64,000 nucleotides of DNA, from contig JAUXRI010000315.1 of assembly GCA_030681895.1 (NCBI GenBank), positions 1-64,000 on the forward strand, read 5' to 3'. The notes below the pieces were generated by a model. It worked only from the letters and a program-made list of their open reading frames with translations, was not told where the DNA came from and did not search any database. The DNA is from Myxococcales bacterium. Its GTDB lineage: Bacteria; Myxococcota; Myxococcia; Myxococcales; Myxococcaceae. Below, piece by piece: positions 49,994 to 55,820 of this stretch (position 1 is the first letter of the stretch; each line of letters begins with the position of its first letter). A program made the translations under genes and the position numbers.

Positions 49994-50367
49994 ATGCGCA
50001 CGATGCTGCTGGGGTCGATGCTGATGCTGGTGCTGAGCGGGTGTCTCACACGTTCGCGAGCGTCGCGTTGGCCGCAGCACACGAGGCGCTTCCGTGTCCT
50101 TCCCTGATGCAGGACGCCCACAGCGCCGGGCTCGACCAGCAGGCCGATGCGCGGTGGAACGAGGGTCAAACGCAGGCCATGTTCGGCGTGCTCCTCGGTG
50201 GCGGCGTCGGCTCGACGCAAGAGGTGGGCGCGCCGCGGCGCCGGATTTTCAAGGGCTGCGGCGTGCTGTTGCAGTGCGACGTCACGTACCCGATGCGGGA
50301 TTCTCCTCGAGCGACGTGCGTGCGGCTCGAGCCGGAGGCCTTCACCGCTCAGCAAGAGGGGCTCTGA
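49994..50367 (+). pseudogene. Small lipoprotein gene, frameshifted paralogue
   Basis: The start (MRTMLLGSMLMLVLSGC, lipobox) closely matches the intact paralogue at 50900-51265. The frame changes at about 50051-50071. The remainder (ALPCPSLMQDAHSAGLDQQADARWNEG...LQCDVTYPMRDSPRATCVRLEP) continues in a different frame to the stop at 50367. One missing base would restore it. The two copies flank an unrelated lipoprotein gene. Confidence 0.75.
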
Positions 50368-50867
50368 TGACACGACACTCGAAGACGACTGGTGCTTGCT
50401 CGCCTCGTCGCGACTTGAAAGCACCGTGGCTCGCCGTCGCGGCGCTCGCGCTCCTCGGACAGGGCTGTGTCGAGGCGCTCGTCCTCGGTGGCGGCCTGGG
50501 CATGGAACACATCAAGAACACCGAGCGGCAGCCCACCATCACCTTCCACAACGGCTTGTCCGAGCCGGTCTGCGCCATCAACCTCTGGCGCGCGTCGCAG
50601 CCGGCCGCCGAGGCCGACGCCAACTGGCTCGAGCTCACCGACCTGACGCGGCTCGACCCAGGGCAGCAGGTCTCCGTCGGCATCCGTCCGCGGGACAGCG
50701 CCTATCAACTGCGCGCGCTGGGGTGCGGTGGCCGTGCGAGTTCTCTCTACAGCGTGTCGCTGTCCGAGCTCATTCCGGGGTCGAGGGTCACGCTCGGGGC
50801 GCCGCCGCCAACGCCAACGCCAACACCGACGTCGCCGCCCACGCTGCCGGCGGCGGTGGGGCTGTGA
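50367..50867 (+). CDS. Lipoprotein of unknown function
   Basis: 166 residues; ATG 50367 shares a base with the stop of the upstream frame. Signal peptide with lipobox LLGQGC. The mature domain (TITFHNGLSEPVCAINLW...VSVGIRPRDSAYQLRALGCGG) looks like a small beta-sandwich with one Cys pair. The C-terminus is a Pro/Thr repeat tail. No family recognised. Probably one operon with the flanking paralogues. Confidence 0.65.
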   Translation: MTRHSKTTGACSPRRDLKAPWLAVAALALLGQGCVEALVLGGGLGMEHIKNTERQPTITFHNGLSEPVCAINLWRASQPAAEADANWLELTDLTRLDPGQQVSVGIRPRDSAYQLRALGCGGRASSLYSVSLSELIPGSRVTLGAPPPTPTPTPTSPPTLPAAVGL

Positions 50868-50899
50868 GTCACGGGTGTGTTGCGAACCTGAGGTTCACC

Positions 50900-51265
50900 A
50901 TGCGAACAGTGGTGCTGGGGTCGATGTTGCTGCTGAGCGGGTGTCTTCGGTCTCGCGAGGCCGCGATGGCGGCGGCACAGGAGGCGCTCCCCTGTCCCTC
51001 GCTGACGCAGGACGGCCACAGTGCCCGGCTCGACCAGCAGGCCGATGCGATGTGGAACGAGGCGCAATCGCTGGCCACGATGGGCCTGCTCCTCGGCGGG
51101 GGCGGCGGCGGCAACGTGCAAGAGGTCGGCGCGCCCCGGAGACGGTTCTTCGAAGGCTGCGGCGTGCGGTTGCAGTGCGACATCACGTACGTGGTGCGAA
51201 ATTGTCCTCGAGCGACCTGCGTGCGGGTCGAGCCGACGCCTTCCACCGAATCGCCGGGGCTCTGA
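50900..51265 (+). CDS. Small Cys-containing lipoprotein, intact copy
   Basis: 121 residues, signal peptide MRTVVLGSMLLLSGC with a lipobox. The helical opening AMAAAQEALPCPSLTQDGHSARLDQQADAMW is followed by a Gly-rich turn and a C-terminal CGVRLQCDITYVVRNCPRATC cluster. No known family. Paralogous to the frameshifted gene at 49994-50367. Confidence 0.65.
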   Translation: MRTVVLGSMLLLSGCLRSREAAMAAAQEALPCPSLTQDGHSARLDQQADAMWNEAQSLATMGLLLGGGGGGNVQEVGAPRRRFFEGCGVRLQCDITYVVRNCPRATCVRVEPTPSTESPGL

Positions 51266-51322: not shown

Positions 51323-52048
51323 CTACTTCGCAGCGGTCCAGCGGCTCTCGAGCACCATCTTCCCCGTGAAGCGCCACGGCGTCTTCCCCGGGCCCGGGTT
51401 GAAGGTGAAGTTCGCCGGCGCCTGCAGCGCGAGCGACGAGCGCCACGAGTCGGTCTTCACCGTGCCGCTCCAGACGAGCGTGAAGCTCTGGTCCAGCACG
51501 GGCATGACCTGCACCAGGCGCACGGCGTACGCGCCCGGCGTCTTCGTGCACTCCGCGGTGGCGTCGCTGAGCGGGGCCTGGTCGTCGCGGAGCGCCAGCA
51601 GCGCCATCACCACTTTCTGGGTGGCCTTCGCGACGGCCGCTCGAGTGGCCTCGTCGCAGGTGGCGCCCGACTTCGACGCCGCGATGATGGGGTCGACCCC
51701 GATGAGGGTGCTCGCGAGCGACGGGAGCCACGGAGGGCCCGCCTGGCGTTTCCCCGGCGTCAGCTCGGTCAACGCGGCTTCCCCGTAGCTGGGCTCGATG
51801 CGCCAGGAGCGCCCCTTCAAGCTCTGCGGACCCGACGTGATGGTGAGCGTGAGCTTGCGCACCTCGTCTTCGCCGGACTCGAGCACCTCGACGTCGAAGG
51901 TCAGCTTTCCGAGCTGCTTCGCGGGGTGCGCCTCGGTGTTCGAGGGCAGACCCGCCACCTTCGACTCGCGGACGTCGGTCACCGTCCACGTGAAGTGCGT
52001 ATGCGCGGCGGGGCTCGCCGCGAGGACGACCAGGAGCGTCGTCAGCAT
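51323..52048 (-). CDS. Secreted protein, third gene of CsgG/FlgO operon
   Basis: 241 residues. ATG 52048 shares a base with the upstream stop (TGATG). Signal peptide MLTTLLVVLAASPAAHT. The mature domain is beta-rich (FTWTVTDVRESKV; LTLTITSGPQSLKG; FTLVWSGTVKTDSWRSSLAL) with a central helical stretch and one Cys pair (TCDEATRA; AECTKTPG). No family recognised. Context suggests it works with the two CsgG/FlgO-like proteins. Confidence 0.65.
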   Translation of the reverse strand: MLTTLLVVLAASPAAHTHFTWTVTDVRESKVAGLPSNTEAHPAKQLGKLTFDVEVLESGEDEVRKLTLTITSGPQSLKGRSWRIEPSYGEAALTELTPGKRQAGPPWLPSLASTLIGVDPIIAASKSGATCDEATRAAVAKATQKVVMALLALRDDQAPLSDATAECTKTPGAYAVRLVQVMPVLDQSFTLVWSGTVKTDSWRSSLALQAPANFTFNPGPGKTPWRFTGKMVLESRWTAAK

Positions 52049-52743
52049 CACAGCGCCAGCTCTGCCAGGCCGAGCCGCGCGAGCATGAAGTCAGGGTTCG
52101 CCTTCACGACCTCCTCGAGCTGCTGCTTCGCTTTCTTCGGGTCCTTGTTGTCCATCGACTCGAGGGCCTTCGCGTACTCAGCGACCGTCTTGAGCGGCAG
52201 CTTGCCCTTGGCTGACTTCGCGAACGCAGGGCGAGGTGTCGGCTTTGGTGGCGGAGCGAGCGCGGCCTTCGCAGCGGCGGCCACCAGCACCGCGTCGACG
52301 TCAGCGGCGAGCTTCTGCTCGAGCGGAAAGAAGTCGTCGGTCTTGCCCGAGGTGCCGACGCCCTTGAGCGTGGCCGAGGTCTCGACCTCGAAGACGCGCG
52401 CGTCGAGCCGCATGGTGCCGCCCATCACGAAGTAGCCGCCCACCACGATGAACTTTGCCTGGAGCAGCTTGCCGACCTGCAGCGCCGCGGCGGGATCGAT
52501 TTTCTGCGTCTTCGCGAGGTTCAGCTCGGCGAGGGCCTCTTGCAGCTTCGCGCGCTCGACGACGCGGTACGCATCACGGCCGGCGAGGTCGGTGATGAGC
52601 ATCTGCGTGATGCCCTTGCGCAGGGTGAGGAGCTCGTCGTCCTTCCCGTCGTAGTCGAAGTACAGGATGGCGACGGTCGGCGGCTCTGCAGCGAGCGCCA
52701 CGCGCGCGAGGAACACCAGCACCAGCGACAGGAGGGTTCTCAT
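52048..52743 (-). CDS. CsgG/FlgO-like envelope protein, short copy
   Basis: 231 residues from ATG 52743, overlapping the upstream stop (ATGA). Signal peptide MRTLLSLVLVFLARVALA. The domain VAILYFDYDGKDDELLTLRKGITQMLITDL...VVERAKLQEALAEL...FIVVGGYFV...RLDARVFEVET matches the CsgG/FlgO/LpoB-type fold. A short TPR-like tail follows. These folds sit at the outer membrane or periplasm in curli secretion, flagella and peptidoglycan control; the role here is unknown. Confidence 0.78.
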   Translation of the reverse strand: MRTLLSLVLVFLARVALAAEPPTVAILYFDYDGKDDELLTLRKGITQMLITDLAGRDAYRVVERAKLQEALAELNLAKTQKIDPAAALQVGKLLQAKFIVVGGYFVMGGTMRLDARVFEVETSATLKGVGTSGKTDDFFPLEQKLAADVDAVLVAAAAKAALAPPPKPTPRPAFAKSAKGKLPLKTVAEYAKALESMDNKDPKKAKQQLEEVVKANPDFMLARLGLAELAL

Positions 52744-53930
52744 TTCTTCACCTTGGACGCGTAGAGGGCGATGAGCTTGCGCATCACCGCTTCGTTCTTG
52801 TGCAGCGAGACGCGCCAGTCTTCGGGGTCGAGCTTCTTCAGGTCCTCTTCGCGCTCTTCGTCCCACTCGCGCATCGCTTCGGCGCGGTCGCGCGTTGCCT
52901 CGGCCTTCAGGGACATGAGGAGCCCGCGGCAATACGACTTCGGGTAGTCGTCGGTCGGGTAGCGCGCGATGAAGTACTCACACGCTTTGGGAATGTTCTC
53001 CCACTGCGTCGGGTCCCCGGTGTGGCGGTAGACGATTTGAAGTCCGCCCATCGCGACCGCGGGCAGCCCATTCACGGCTGGCGGCGTCAGGTCGTTCTCG
53101 GCGAGCCAGAGGAGCAGCTCGACCTTGCGCTTCTGCTCGTCGGTCTTCCCTTCCTGCAGTTGGCTCAACAGCGTCGCCACCTTCTGGGGAAAGTCCTTCG
53201 CCTTCGGGTCGAGCGCCTTCCGCATCGCGTCGGCCGTCTGCACCTTCGCGTCGTCGTCGCGCTTGAAGATGACGGCGAGGCGCTCGGTGGCCGTCTTCGC
53301 CGCGCGGTAGTTCGGGTCCGCCGCGAGCGCTGCCTCGAAGTGCGCGCGGGCCTTCGCTTCGTCGCCAGCGTCCTTCGCGGTGAGGCCGGCCGCGTAGTTC
53401 GAGAACGCGTCGAAGCTCTCGGTGGCGTTGCTGCGCAGCTTCGTCTTCTCGGTGAGCTGCAGCTTCACGTCGAGCGCCTTGATGAGCAGCTCCACCAGCT
53501 CCTTCTCGAGCGCGAAGAACTCGTCCTTCTTCCCTTCGACCTTCTCGCTGAACATCACCTTGCTGGCCGGCACGTCGAAGAGCCGCGCGTCGAGGCGCAT
53601 CGTCTCGGCCGACACGACGTAGCCACCGACGAGCAGGTAGCGGGCCGAGAGTCCCTTGCCCAACTTGAGCGCGTTCTTCGGGTCGATGAACTTCGTCTTC
53701 GACAGCTTGAGCTCGTCGAGCGCGAGGTTGAGCTTGTCGCGCTCCACCAGTTGCAGCGACTGCACGTTCGAGAGGTCGGTGATCAACATGTCGGCGAGGC
53801 CGCGCGCGAGCGGCTCGTAGCCCGCCTCGAGCGAGTTGTTGTCGAAGTACGCGATGGCGACCGACAGCGGTTTGTCCGCCAGGGCACCGCAGCTGAGCAA
53901 CGCGCTCACCATGAGAAAGATTCGAGCCAT
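52740..53930 (-). CDS. CsgG/FlgO-like protein with TPR tail, long copy
   Basis: 396 residues, signal peptide MARIFLMVSALLSCGALA. The N-terminal domain of about 160 residues is paralogous to the next gene (IAYFDNNSLEAGYEPLARGLADMLITDL; VERDKLNLALDELKL; LVGGYVV). The C-terminal half is helical and TPR-like (AAGLTAKDAGDEAKARAHFEAALAADPNY). First gene of the three-gene run. Divergent from the hybrid kinase, so a shared control region (53931-54020) is possible. Confidence 0.8.
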   Translation of the reverse strand: MARIFLMVSALLSCGALADKPLSVAIAYFDNNSLEAGYEPLARGLADMLITDLSNVQSLQLVERDKLNLALDELKLSKTKFIDPKNALKLGKGLSARYLLVGGYVVSAETMRLDARLFDVPASKVMFSEKVEGKKDEFFALEKELVELLIKALDVKLQLTEKTKLRSNATESFDAFSNYAAGLTAKDAGDEAKARAHFEAALAADPNYRAAKTATERLAVIFKRDDDAKVQTADAMRKALDPKAKDFPQKVATLLSQLQEGKTDEQKRKVELLLWLAENDLTPPAVNGLPAVAMGGLQIVYRHTGDPTQWENIPKACEYFIARYPTDDYPKSYCRGLLMSLKAEATRDRAEAMREWDEEREEDLKKLDPEDWRVSLHKNEAVMRKLIALYASKVKK

Positions 53931-54020
53931 GCGCCGGGCTTGTACTTCATTCGGTGACGATCGTTCGAGTCAGAGGGGTTGCGCGCGGAACGTCGGTACG
54001 TGAGGGTTCGTCGCGGGGGC

Positions 54021-55820
54021 ATGGGTGTGACGACCGACTTCACGTTCCGAACGATGTTCGAGCAGTCGCCTGCCTTGTGCCTGCTGCTCGACACGCGCTT
54101 CTTCATCGTCGCCGCGACCGACGCGTACCTCTCCGCCACGATGACCGTGCGCGACCACATCGTCGGGCGTTCGCTCTTCGACGTCTTCCCCGACAACCCC
54201 GACGACCCGGCCGCTGATGGCGTGCGCAACCTGAAGGCCTCGCTCGAGCGGGTGCGCACGACGGCTCGCGCCGACGCCATGGCCGTGCAGAAGTACGACG
54301 TGCGCCGGCCCGAGGCCGAGGGTGGGGGCTTCGAGGTGCGGCACTGGAGCCCACGCAACTGGCCCGTCCTCGAAGGCGGCGCCCTGGCCTTCATCGTTCA
54401 TCAAGTCGAAGACGTGACGGCACTCATGCAACTGCGCGAGCGGGCCGACAACCAGAGCTCGCTCAATGACGCGCTGAAGACCCACGCTGGCCGCATGGAA
54501 GCCGAGGTCGTCAACCGCGCGAAGGAGCTGCAGGTGACGAACACCCAGCTGCGCGCCGCCGAAGAAGAGCTGCGGCGCTTCAACGAGGAGCTCGAACAAC
54601 GCGTTCGAAGCGAGAGTGAAGCGCGCGCACGCGCCGAGGATCAGTTTCGCCAGGCCCAGAAGATGGAAGCGGTTGGGCTGCTCGCGGGCGGCGTCGCGCA
54701 CGACTTCAACAACCTGCTGACGGTGATGCTGAGCTGCAGCGCGCTGGTGCTCGAGGAGCTTCATGAAGGCCACGCCGCGCGCGCCGACATTCTCGACATC
54801 GAAGAGGCCGCGCGCCGTGCCGCCGGGTTGACCAGACAGCTGCTCGCCTTCAGCCGTCGCCAGGTCTTGAGCCCGACGACGCTCAGCCTCAATGACGTCG
54901 TGCTCCAGTCACAGCCGCTGTTGCGTCGGCTGCTGGGTGAAGACATCGAGCTCGCCTCGGTGTGCGCGAAGGAACTCTCGGCGACGCGGGCCGACCGCGG
55001 CCTCATCGAGCAGGTGTTGATGAACCTGGTCGTCAACGCGCGCGACGCCATGCCTCGCGGTGGCACCATCACCATCGAGACGTCCAACCTCGAGCTCGAC
55101 GAGAACTCGGGTGGCTGCCTCGGCGCTGCGCCCGGGCGGTACGTGATGCTGGCCGTCACCGACACCGGCTGCGGCATGACGGAAGACACCAGGGCGCGCC
55201 TGTTCCTGCCCTTCTTCACCACCAAGGCCGTCGGCCGCGGCACGGGGCTCGGCCTCTCGATGGTGCACGGCGTGGTGAAGCAGAGCGGCGGTGAGCTGCT
55301 CGTCTATTCCGTGCTCGGCAAGGGCTCGACCATCAAGGTGTGCCTGCCCCGTGAGGCGAGGGTCGTCGAGGCCGAGGCCGGCGTTGCGTCGGTGGTCGAA
55401 CCCCTGCCTCACGTTCGCCTGCTGCTCGTCGAAGACGAAGAGGCGGTGCGCTCGGTCGCCGTTCGAATCCTCAAACGCGAGGGCGTGTCGGTCATCGCAG
55501 CGTCGTCGCCGCTGGAGGCGCTCGAGCTCTGTCGCGACGAGGCCACCCAATTCGACGTGGTGTTGACCGACGTGGTGATGCCCTCGATGGATGGGCCGAC
55601 CTTCATCGAGCGCCTGGCCGAGGTGCGCAGCGACTTCAGGGTGGTGTTCATGTCGGGGTACACCGGCGGCGCGCTCGTTCACCAACACGTGCTCGCGTCG
55701 AACGCGACCTTCTTGCAGAAGCCCTTCACGCCCGCGCAGTTGCTGGGTCGGCTGCGAGAGGCGTTGAGCGCGCCGATGTGGGGCCCGACGTCGGCCGCCG
55801 GAACACGTCGCTCGTCTTGA
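54021..55820 (+). CDS. Hybrid sensor histidine kinase (PAS-HisKA-HATPase-receiver)
   Basis: 599 residues from ATG 54021; a TTG at 53979 is less likely. An N-terminal PAS domain (about 8-135) is followed by a coiled coil (135-210). The dimerisation/phosphoacceptor region has His227 in GVAHDFNN, then HATPase motifs ([27 protein letters not shown]). The C-terminal receiver has phosphoacceptor Asp517 and Lys567. No transmembrane segment, so cytoplasmic. No separate response regulator is adjacent, so output probably goes through a phosphotransfer protein elsewhere. Confidence 0.92.

Follow-up and report, generated by a model that had tools for sequence, protein, structure and literature searches.

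What do two overlapping genes for exported proteins of the CsgG type do when no curli genes surround them, and does a third gene located behind them belong to the same system? This question is raised by a cluster of three minus-strand genes in the window (the whole stretch of 64,000 nucleotides that was analysed), which the earlier note had described as an operon for a possible novel outer-membrane complex.

Layout and conservation of the locus

The long member of the cluster, P1 (positions 52740–53930), encodes a protein of 396 amino acids (aa) with an apparent signal peptide, a predicted TolB-N/CsgG-core domain, TPR-like helices and a helical C-terminus. The short member, P2 (52048–52743), encodes 231 aa with an apparent signal peptide, the same core domain as P1 and a TPR-like tail. 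The third gene, P3, encodes an exported-looking protein and extends from 51323 to 52048 if it starts at an ATG (241 aa), or to 52051 if it starts at a GTG (242 aa). All three are overlapping open reading frames (ORFs) of the minus strand, each with an apparent signal peptide, in agreement with the overlap and export stated in the earlier note. P1 and P2 overlap by the four bases ATGA, with the start of P2 positioned inside the stop of P1, and the P2/P3 junction reads GTGATG, with P3 starting at the stop of P2. Third codon positions have a GC content of 0.92 in P1, 0.95 in P3 and 0.78 in a longer ORF that contains P2 and begins upstream of it. On the plus strand, divergent from P1, lies a hybrid histidine kinase gene (54021–55820; an alternative TTG start is open at 53979, and the Pfam scan was begun at 54024). 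The assignment of this gene, which had also been made earlier, was confirmed by clear HATPase_c and receiver matches (1.9e-20 for each), with HisKA and PAS matches below their cut-offs.

The reported lack of curli and flagellar genes in the vicinity also held, as none besides P1 and P2 was found among 16 window proteins scanned with Pfam. The other proteins with matches above cut-off in this set are the YchF GTPase, a HATPase_c protein, a sigma-54 activator, an S15 peptidase, two Ser/Thr kinases and a sigma-70-family factor, and a thioredoxin-like protein is just under its Pfam cut-off. CsgF had no match in the window genome (G000, 87.85% complete), and the Escherichia coli control was detected in the same search. 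Two adjoining plus-strand ORFs at 50041–50367 and about 50867–51265 are alike (EALPCPSL..., LDQQAD...) and appear to be a duplicated small gene.

Within the genus, P1 and P2 occur together in four of seven genomes (G000, G001, G005 and G006), each of which retains the ATGA overlap. Relative to the window, P1 is 84, 78 and 82% identical in G001, G005 and G006, respectively, and the corresponding values for P2 are 69, 70 and 72%. The dN/dS ratios against these three relatives, obtained with a simple counting method, are 0.21–0.42 for P1 and 0.33–0.40 for P2. A close P1 was not found in G002, G003 and G004 (completeness 89% for G003 and 85% for G004). The gene for YchF lies behind the pair at a distance of 1.1 kb in G001 and 2.9 kb in G006, and no YchF was seen in 9 kb behind P2 in the G005 stretch. 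In the window, about 13.4 kb separate YchF from P2 (38682–52047), with P3 and other genes inside this interval.

In the stretches from the three closest relatives (L086, L087 and L088), P1 does not have the kinase gene as its neighbour. In G001 (L086) a thioredoxin-like gene is divergent from P1, and other genes are found there in the remaining close relatives. For P3, none of the other six genomes of the genus gave a match at E ≤ 0.001. Its homologues occur in five of 195 Myxococcota genomes, namely G000 and four genomes outside its genus (G107, G108, G023 and G018), which together contain six copies with 23–33% identity over the alignment, and no CsgG-type genes are located beside these copies in the stretches examined, two of which are short (3.3 and 10 kb). 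Since P3 is unmatched in the genus relatives and P1 has neighbours other than the kinase in the closest ones, P3 and the kinase are, on comparison of gene content, local features, and the P1–P2 pair is the unit; the kinase is probably a neighbour that stands outside it. The proposal of a three-gene operon as a unit was abandoned on the same P3 evidence.

P3 itself fits the earlier description of an exported-looking protein of no known family, as neither Pfam nor NCBIfam gave a match at E up to 1. Two cysteines are invariant in the alignment of P3 and its six relatives. In the AF2 model of P3 (pLDDT 81.8, pTM 0.79; 7 sequences), beta structure predominates and a helical stretch occupies the central part of the protein. 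No known family could be adopted from its structural matches by Foldseek and a second aligner, which are a mixture of MucB, FadL, barrel, apolipoprotein and LolA/LppX/LprG rows with Z-scores of at most 8.1 and, among the aligner rows listed, rmsd of at least 4 Å. We read them as a common arrangement that names no family, and a family missing from these rows is not thereby argued against. P3 may bind a hydrophobic ligand, which is only a guess. In G005, the place of P3 behind P2 is taken by a different gene (L088:7622–9010), whose product is exported-looking, has 462 aa and matches no Pfam family.

Predicted fold and export of P1 and P2

P1 and P2 had been labelled as CsgG/FlgO-like. The CsgG half of this label is supported, as both proteins exceed the cut-off of the Pfam CsgG profile (PF03783, cut-off 20.8; 41 bits and 1.8e-10 for P1, 42.6 bits and 5.4e-11 for P2), with matches limited to profile positions 32–97 and 38–97 of 210. 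The FlgO half is weak: the superfamily core is present, but the FlgO profile (PF17680) gave 17.0 bits for P1, under the cut-off of 22.6, and no match for P2 in the Pfam scan. Both proteins are also under the cut-off of the LpoB profile (PF13036, 22.3), with 13.0 bits for P1 and 11.7 bits for P2, and this cut-off is exceeded by both members of a paralogous pair on contig C70 of the same genome. The TPR tail that had been ascribed to one of the proteins is seen as a TPR-like tail in both. The best Pfam TPR match of P1 is 19.5 bits (under the cut-off of 27), the best TPR-type match of P2 is TPR_Slam with 20.5 bits (under the cut-off of 35.2), and the P2 tail could be aligned across all 15 chosen short proteins. 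Such a tail is missing from short proteins of a more distant type. All NCBIfam matches of P1 and P2 are far below their cut-offs, the best being TIGR04510 (named by NCBIfam as a putative peptide modification system cyclase), with 27.5 versus 400 bits. When P1 and P2 were each used as a single query against the sequences of solved structures, no match was obtained at E up to 1. PADLOC gave no match for P1–P3 at E 0.01, and a reading as a defence system was dropped for this reason.

The AF2 model of P1 (mean pLDDT 90.3, pTM 0.75; 26 sequences) comprises a core domain (residues ∼20–156), TPR-like helices (∼172–226) and then a helical C-terminus. For residues 20–170, the highest Z-score was obtained with TolB (14.0 over 131 residues, 2.5 Å, 13% identity), and further structural matches of P1 include FlgT (Z of 13.0), GNA1162 (11.4), PelC (11.2), LpoB (10.7) and CsgG (9.0–10.0). 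TPR chains match residues ∼172–226 with a Z of ∼9 over 51–60 residues, a range in which the aligner issues a warning for helical repeats (below 13), so these helical matches may reflect a common arrangement. In its model, P1 has the core fold of TolB-N, FlgT, PelC, LpoB and CsgG, and the same core domain is predicted for P2 by homology to P1. Beyond residue 135, P1 is predicted to be helical, with no beta-propeller, and P2 (231 aa) is too short for one.

Matches to CsgG above the Pfam cut-off would be expected if P1 and P2 formed a two-subunit CsgG-type secretion pore in the outer membrane, with P3 as an accessory or substrate; the lipobox-like leader of P1 in the window genome and the outer-membrane barrels among the weak structural matches of P3 are also consistent with such a pore. 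However, the profile match covers less than half of the profile in either protein, and P3 was not found with the pair elsewhere in the stretches examined. The model of P1 has, in addition, no place for the hairpins of the CsgG barrel, because its core strands (98–107, 110–119 and 124–134) are connected by short turns of 2 and 4 residues and because residues 18–154 of P1 (137 residues) are aligned to residues 30–232 of CsgG (203 residues; PDB entry 6l7a), i.e. CsgG has 66 more. The export leaders also argue against the pore. They were surveyed in 55 family proteins (duplicates were removed, and rows that scored below 100 bits were kept only if P2 was their closest match), and a hydrophobic leader was present in 53 of them according to simple hydropathy. 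A lipobox-like pattern was found in a single leader, that of P1 from the window genome; P2 and the P1 orthologues do not have it, and a lipoprotein reading of P1 was set aside. We regard the pore as highly improbable, and the novel outer-membrane complex of the earlier note is not upheld. Given the missing room for barrel hairpins and the absence of a lipobox from nearly all leaders (54 of 55), we read P1 and P2 as predicted soluble periplasmic proteins.

Another possible role for soluble proteins of this kind is suggested by CadC, which is first in the Foldseek E-value order for P1 (3.2e-6), with LpoB and TolB next in that order. The periplasmic domain of CadC matches P1 with a Z of 10.9 over 189 residues (4.2 Å), and the alignment spans both the core and the helical part. 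P1 and P2 might then be free periplasmic sensors with a CadC-like sensor domain that lacks the DNA-binding and membrane parts of CadC, signalling to the hybrid kinase whose gene is divergent from P1. This is difficult to reconcile with the three closest relatives described above, in which P1 stands next to other genes, and with the kinase itself, in which an export signal is not apparent by eye. We consider a sensor role unlikely.

Recurrent pairing and the C70 cluster

The Pfam CsgG profile has four matches in G000, all above the cut-off, and they constitute two long–short pairs, one in the window and the other on contig C70. Across Myxococcota, the domain profile has matches in 80 of 195 genomes, and the pairing counts rest on 150 matches in 62 genomes, among the matches listed. 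Of these matches, 75 are located within 6 kb of another one. At least one pair within 6 kb is present in 33 of the 62 genomes among the matches listed (25 of 36 in the same family), and the 29 genomes without such a pair among the matches listed include many fragmented drafts. A distance of 36–39 kb on one contig separates the two genes in each of G132 and G134. All six genomes that consist of one or two contigs and have a listed match are paired (G103, G104, G142, G150, G152 and G153); they represent two genera only (g7 and g23), with four of them from one genus. The genomes are related, so the pairing counts are not independent observations. With few such genes in multi-megabase genomes, two of them would presumably fall within 6 kb of each other only rarely by chance.

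In a tree of 56 domains, the P2-type short proteins form a clade of 7 rows with a support of 100/99, which includes the short proteins of G037, G103 and G104, whose long partners sit outside the clade of P1. The C70-type short proteins form a separate clade (8 rows, support 99/95). In a third, distant set, short and long proteins are sister to each other, and their genes are adjacent in G022, G036, G042 and G150. Judged from these sequences, the long and short types are old and their pairing recurs with different partners, which is the main argument for a joint function of the long and short proteins and makes a P1–P2 complex plausible. The comparison of gene neighbourhoods in other myxobacteria thus preserves one part of the proposed linkage, that of P1 with P2, and not the linkage of P3. 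The gene order can differ, with the short gene preceding the long one in G108 (L092). Distant, tightly adjacent short–long pairs were seen in genomes of genera g23 and g17 (L079:7824–9721 and L078:8443–10292), in which the short protein has ∼141–154 aa and no TPR-like tail.

The pairs could also be tandem duplicates that were kept by chance, with P1 and P2 acting singly as helpers of the LpoB or CpoB type. Neighbouring paralogues commonly arise by tandem duplication, the fold is the same as that of LpoB and TolB, and the third type, with short and long proteins as sister groups, is what duplication would leave behind. Unpaired genes are found as well: besides the 29 genomes mentioned above, P1-like genes without an adjacent short gene occur in G008 (L089) and twice in G056 (L090 and L091), on contigs that end 0.8 to 3.3 kb downstream, and one short gene of G056 is ∼16 kb from a long gene on the same contig. 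However, a recent tandem duplication would give sister genes, unlike the P2-type and C70-type short proteins, which form supported clades of their own and are paired with long proteins of different clades. Independent action of P1 and P2 is the alternative that we take most seriously, at a probability that is appreciable and still clearly in the minority.

The second pair of G000 is part of a cluster on contig C70 (L013:2169–14626). Over the stretches that matched, its long member (L013 8475–10637, 720 aa) and its short member (L013 5178–5897, 239 aa) share 33 and 30% identity with P1, respectively; both have TPR matches and an apparent signal peptide. The order of the genes is trypsin-like, 593-aa caspase-like, long CsgG/TPR, a convergent gene of 774 aa, short CsgG/TPR, DUF4145/TPR, 422-aa caspase-like and cNMP-binding. 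The protease assignments come from Pfam matches to Trypsin_2 (2.3e-22) and to caspase (8e-13 for the 593-aa protein and 2e-13 for the 422-aa protein). The trypsin-like protein contains the motif GDSG, and the 593-aa caspase-like protein contains SGHG and DACYS; no motif pattern matched the 422-aa protein, in which DACQSSG was recognized by eye. The 422-aa protein has an apparent signal peptide, and the other caspase-like protein has a probable membrane helix before the caspase domain (assigned by eye). When five C70 proteins were submitted to PADLOC, two had no match and three matched caspase, protease and CorA-like models. From its gene content, the C70 cluster looks like an envelope protease system.

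The content and order of the cluster are the same in G001, G004, G005 and G006 (the 422-aa caspase-like gene of G005 and G006 was recovered by profile and not by gene calling), and also in G023, with an extra long gene. G004 has the protease cluster and no window-type pair. In the G023 copy of the cluster, on contig C59 (L070:6077–10449), the two long CsgG-core genes are neighbours that encode 758 and 699 aa, and the short gene is present as well. In the stretches from G103, G104 and G021, no caspase of these types was found, and the pair is accompanied by only parts of the cluster. Because these three genomes keep the pair without these caspases, the pair is, in the sequences compared, the constant part and the proteases vary. 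The link to proteases belongs to the C70 pair only, and none of these proteases is located beside the window pair.

Proposed role and comparison with known systems

We consider it somewhat more probable than the sum of the alternatives that P1 and P2 are a periplasmic hetero-oligomeric adaptor pair. Each protein would be exported by its signal peptide, would fold into a TolB-N/CsgG-core domain and would end in TPR-like helices, as seen in the model of P1 and expected for P2 from homology. The two would be made together by translational coupling, their core domains would associate into a hetero-oligomer in the periplasm, and their helical tails would hold client proteins. P3 would be an addition of this lineage, placed behind a pair that can probably do without it. 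The location of the C70 pair among caspase-like and trypsin-like proteins suggests that the clients of the family include envelope proteases, and the protease-linked C70 paralogue thus offers testable client candidates for the family. A bolder version is that myxobacterial two-subunit periplasmic adaptors, composed of a long and a short TolB-N/TPR-like protein, recruit or regulate caspase-like and trypsin-like proteases of the envelope, and that P1 and P2 serve the C70-type cluster as a second, interchangeable adaptor pair. All four genus members with the window pair (G000, G001, G005 and G006) hold such a cluster; we nevertheless rate this version as a long shot.

In the open-licence PMC literature, no description of lipobox-free, TPR-tailed long–short CsgG-core pairs was found. 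PMC12204202 is concerned with TolB-like propeller proteins, and CsgG is not mentioned in it. Metacaspase operons are reported in PMC3501461, four of them in Myxococcus xanthus with sigma-70 factors; trypsin, TolB and FlgO are not mentioned there.

By Z-score, the closest structural relative of the P1 core is the N-terminal domain of TolB from the Tol-Pal system; the core fold is common to both, but the P1 model has no beta-propeller and continues with TPR-like helices. The periplasmic part of CadC consists of the core followed by a helical domain, as in P1. However, CadC is a single membrane-bound transcription factor, and P1 and P2 are free, exported-looking and paired. The soluble part of the CsgG pore contains the core that is common to P1 and P2, but the barrel hairpins are absent from the P1 model, the lipobox is not conserved and CsgF had no match in the genome. 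The same core without membrane strands is found in PelC, LpoB, GNA1162 and FlgT (Z of about 10–13). PelC, LpoB and GNA1162 are lipoproteins, and we know of no long–short pairing with TPR-like tails for any of these four proteins. The C70 pair and P1–P2 are both long–short CsgG-core pairs, with the difference that the C70 genes are separated by a convergent gene and are located amid proteases. The domain and its fold are thus known, and the recurrent pairing and the protease-linked paralogue are less expected. Proteins of this type are likely annotated in databases as CsgG- or FlgO-like, and if P1 and P2 do form a hetero-oligomer, they would be a warning against equating a CsgG profile match with curli secretion where curli partners are absent. 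They would also represent a soluble, two-subunit use of a domain whose best-known examples, CsgG and PelC among them, are homo-oligomers.
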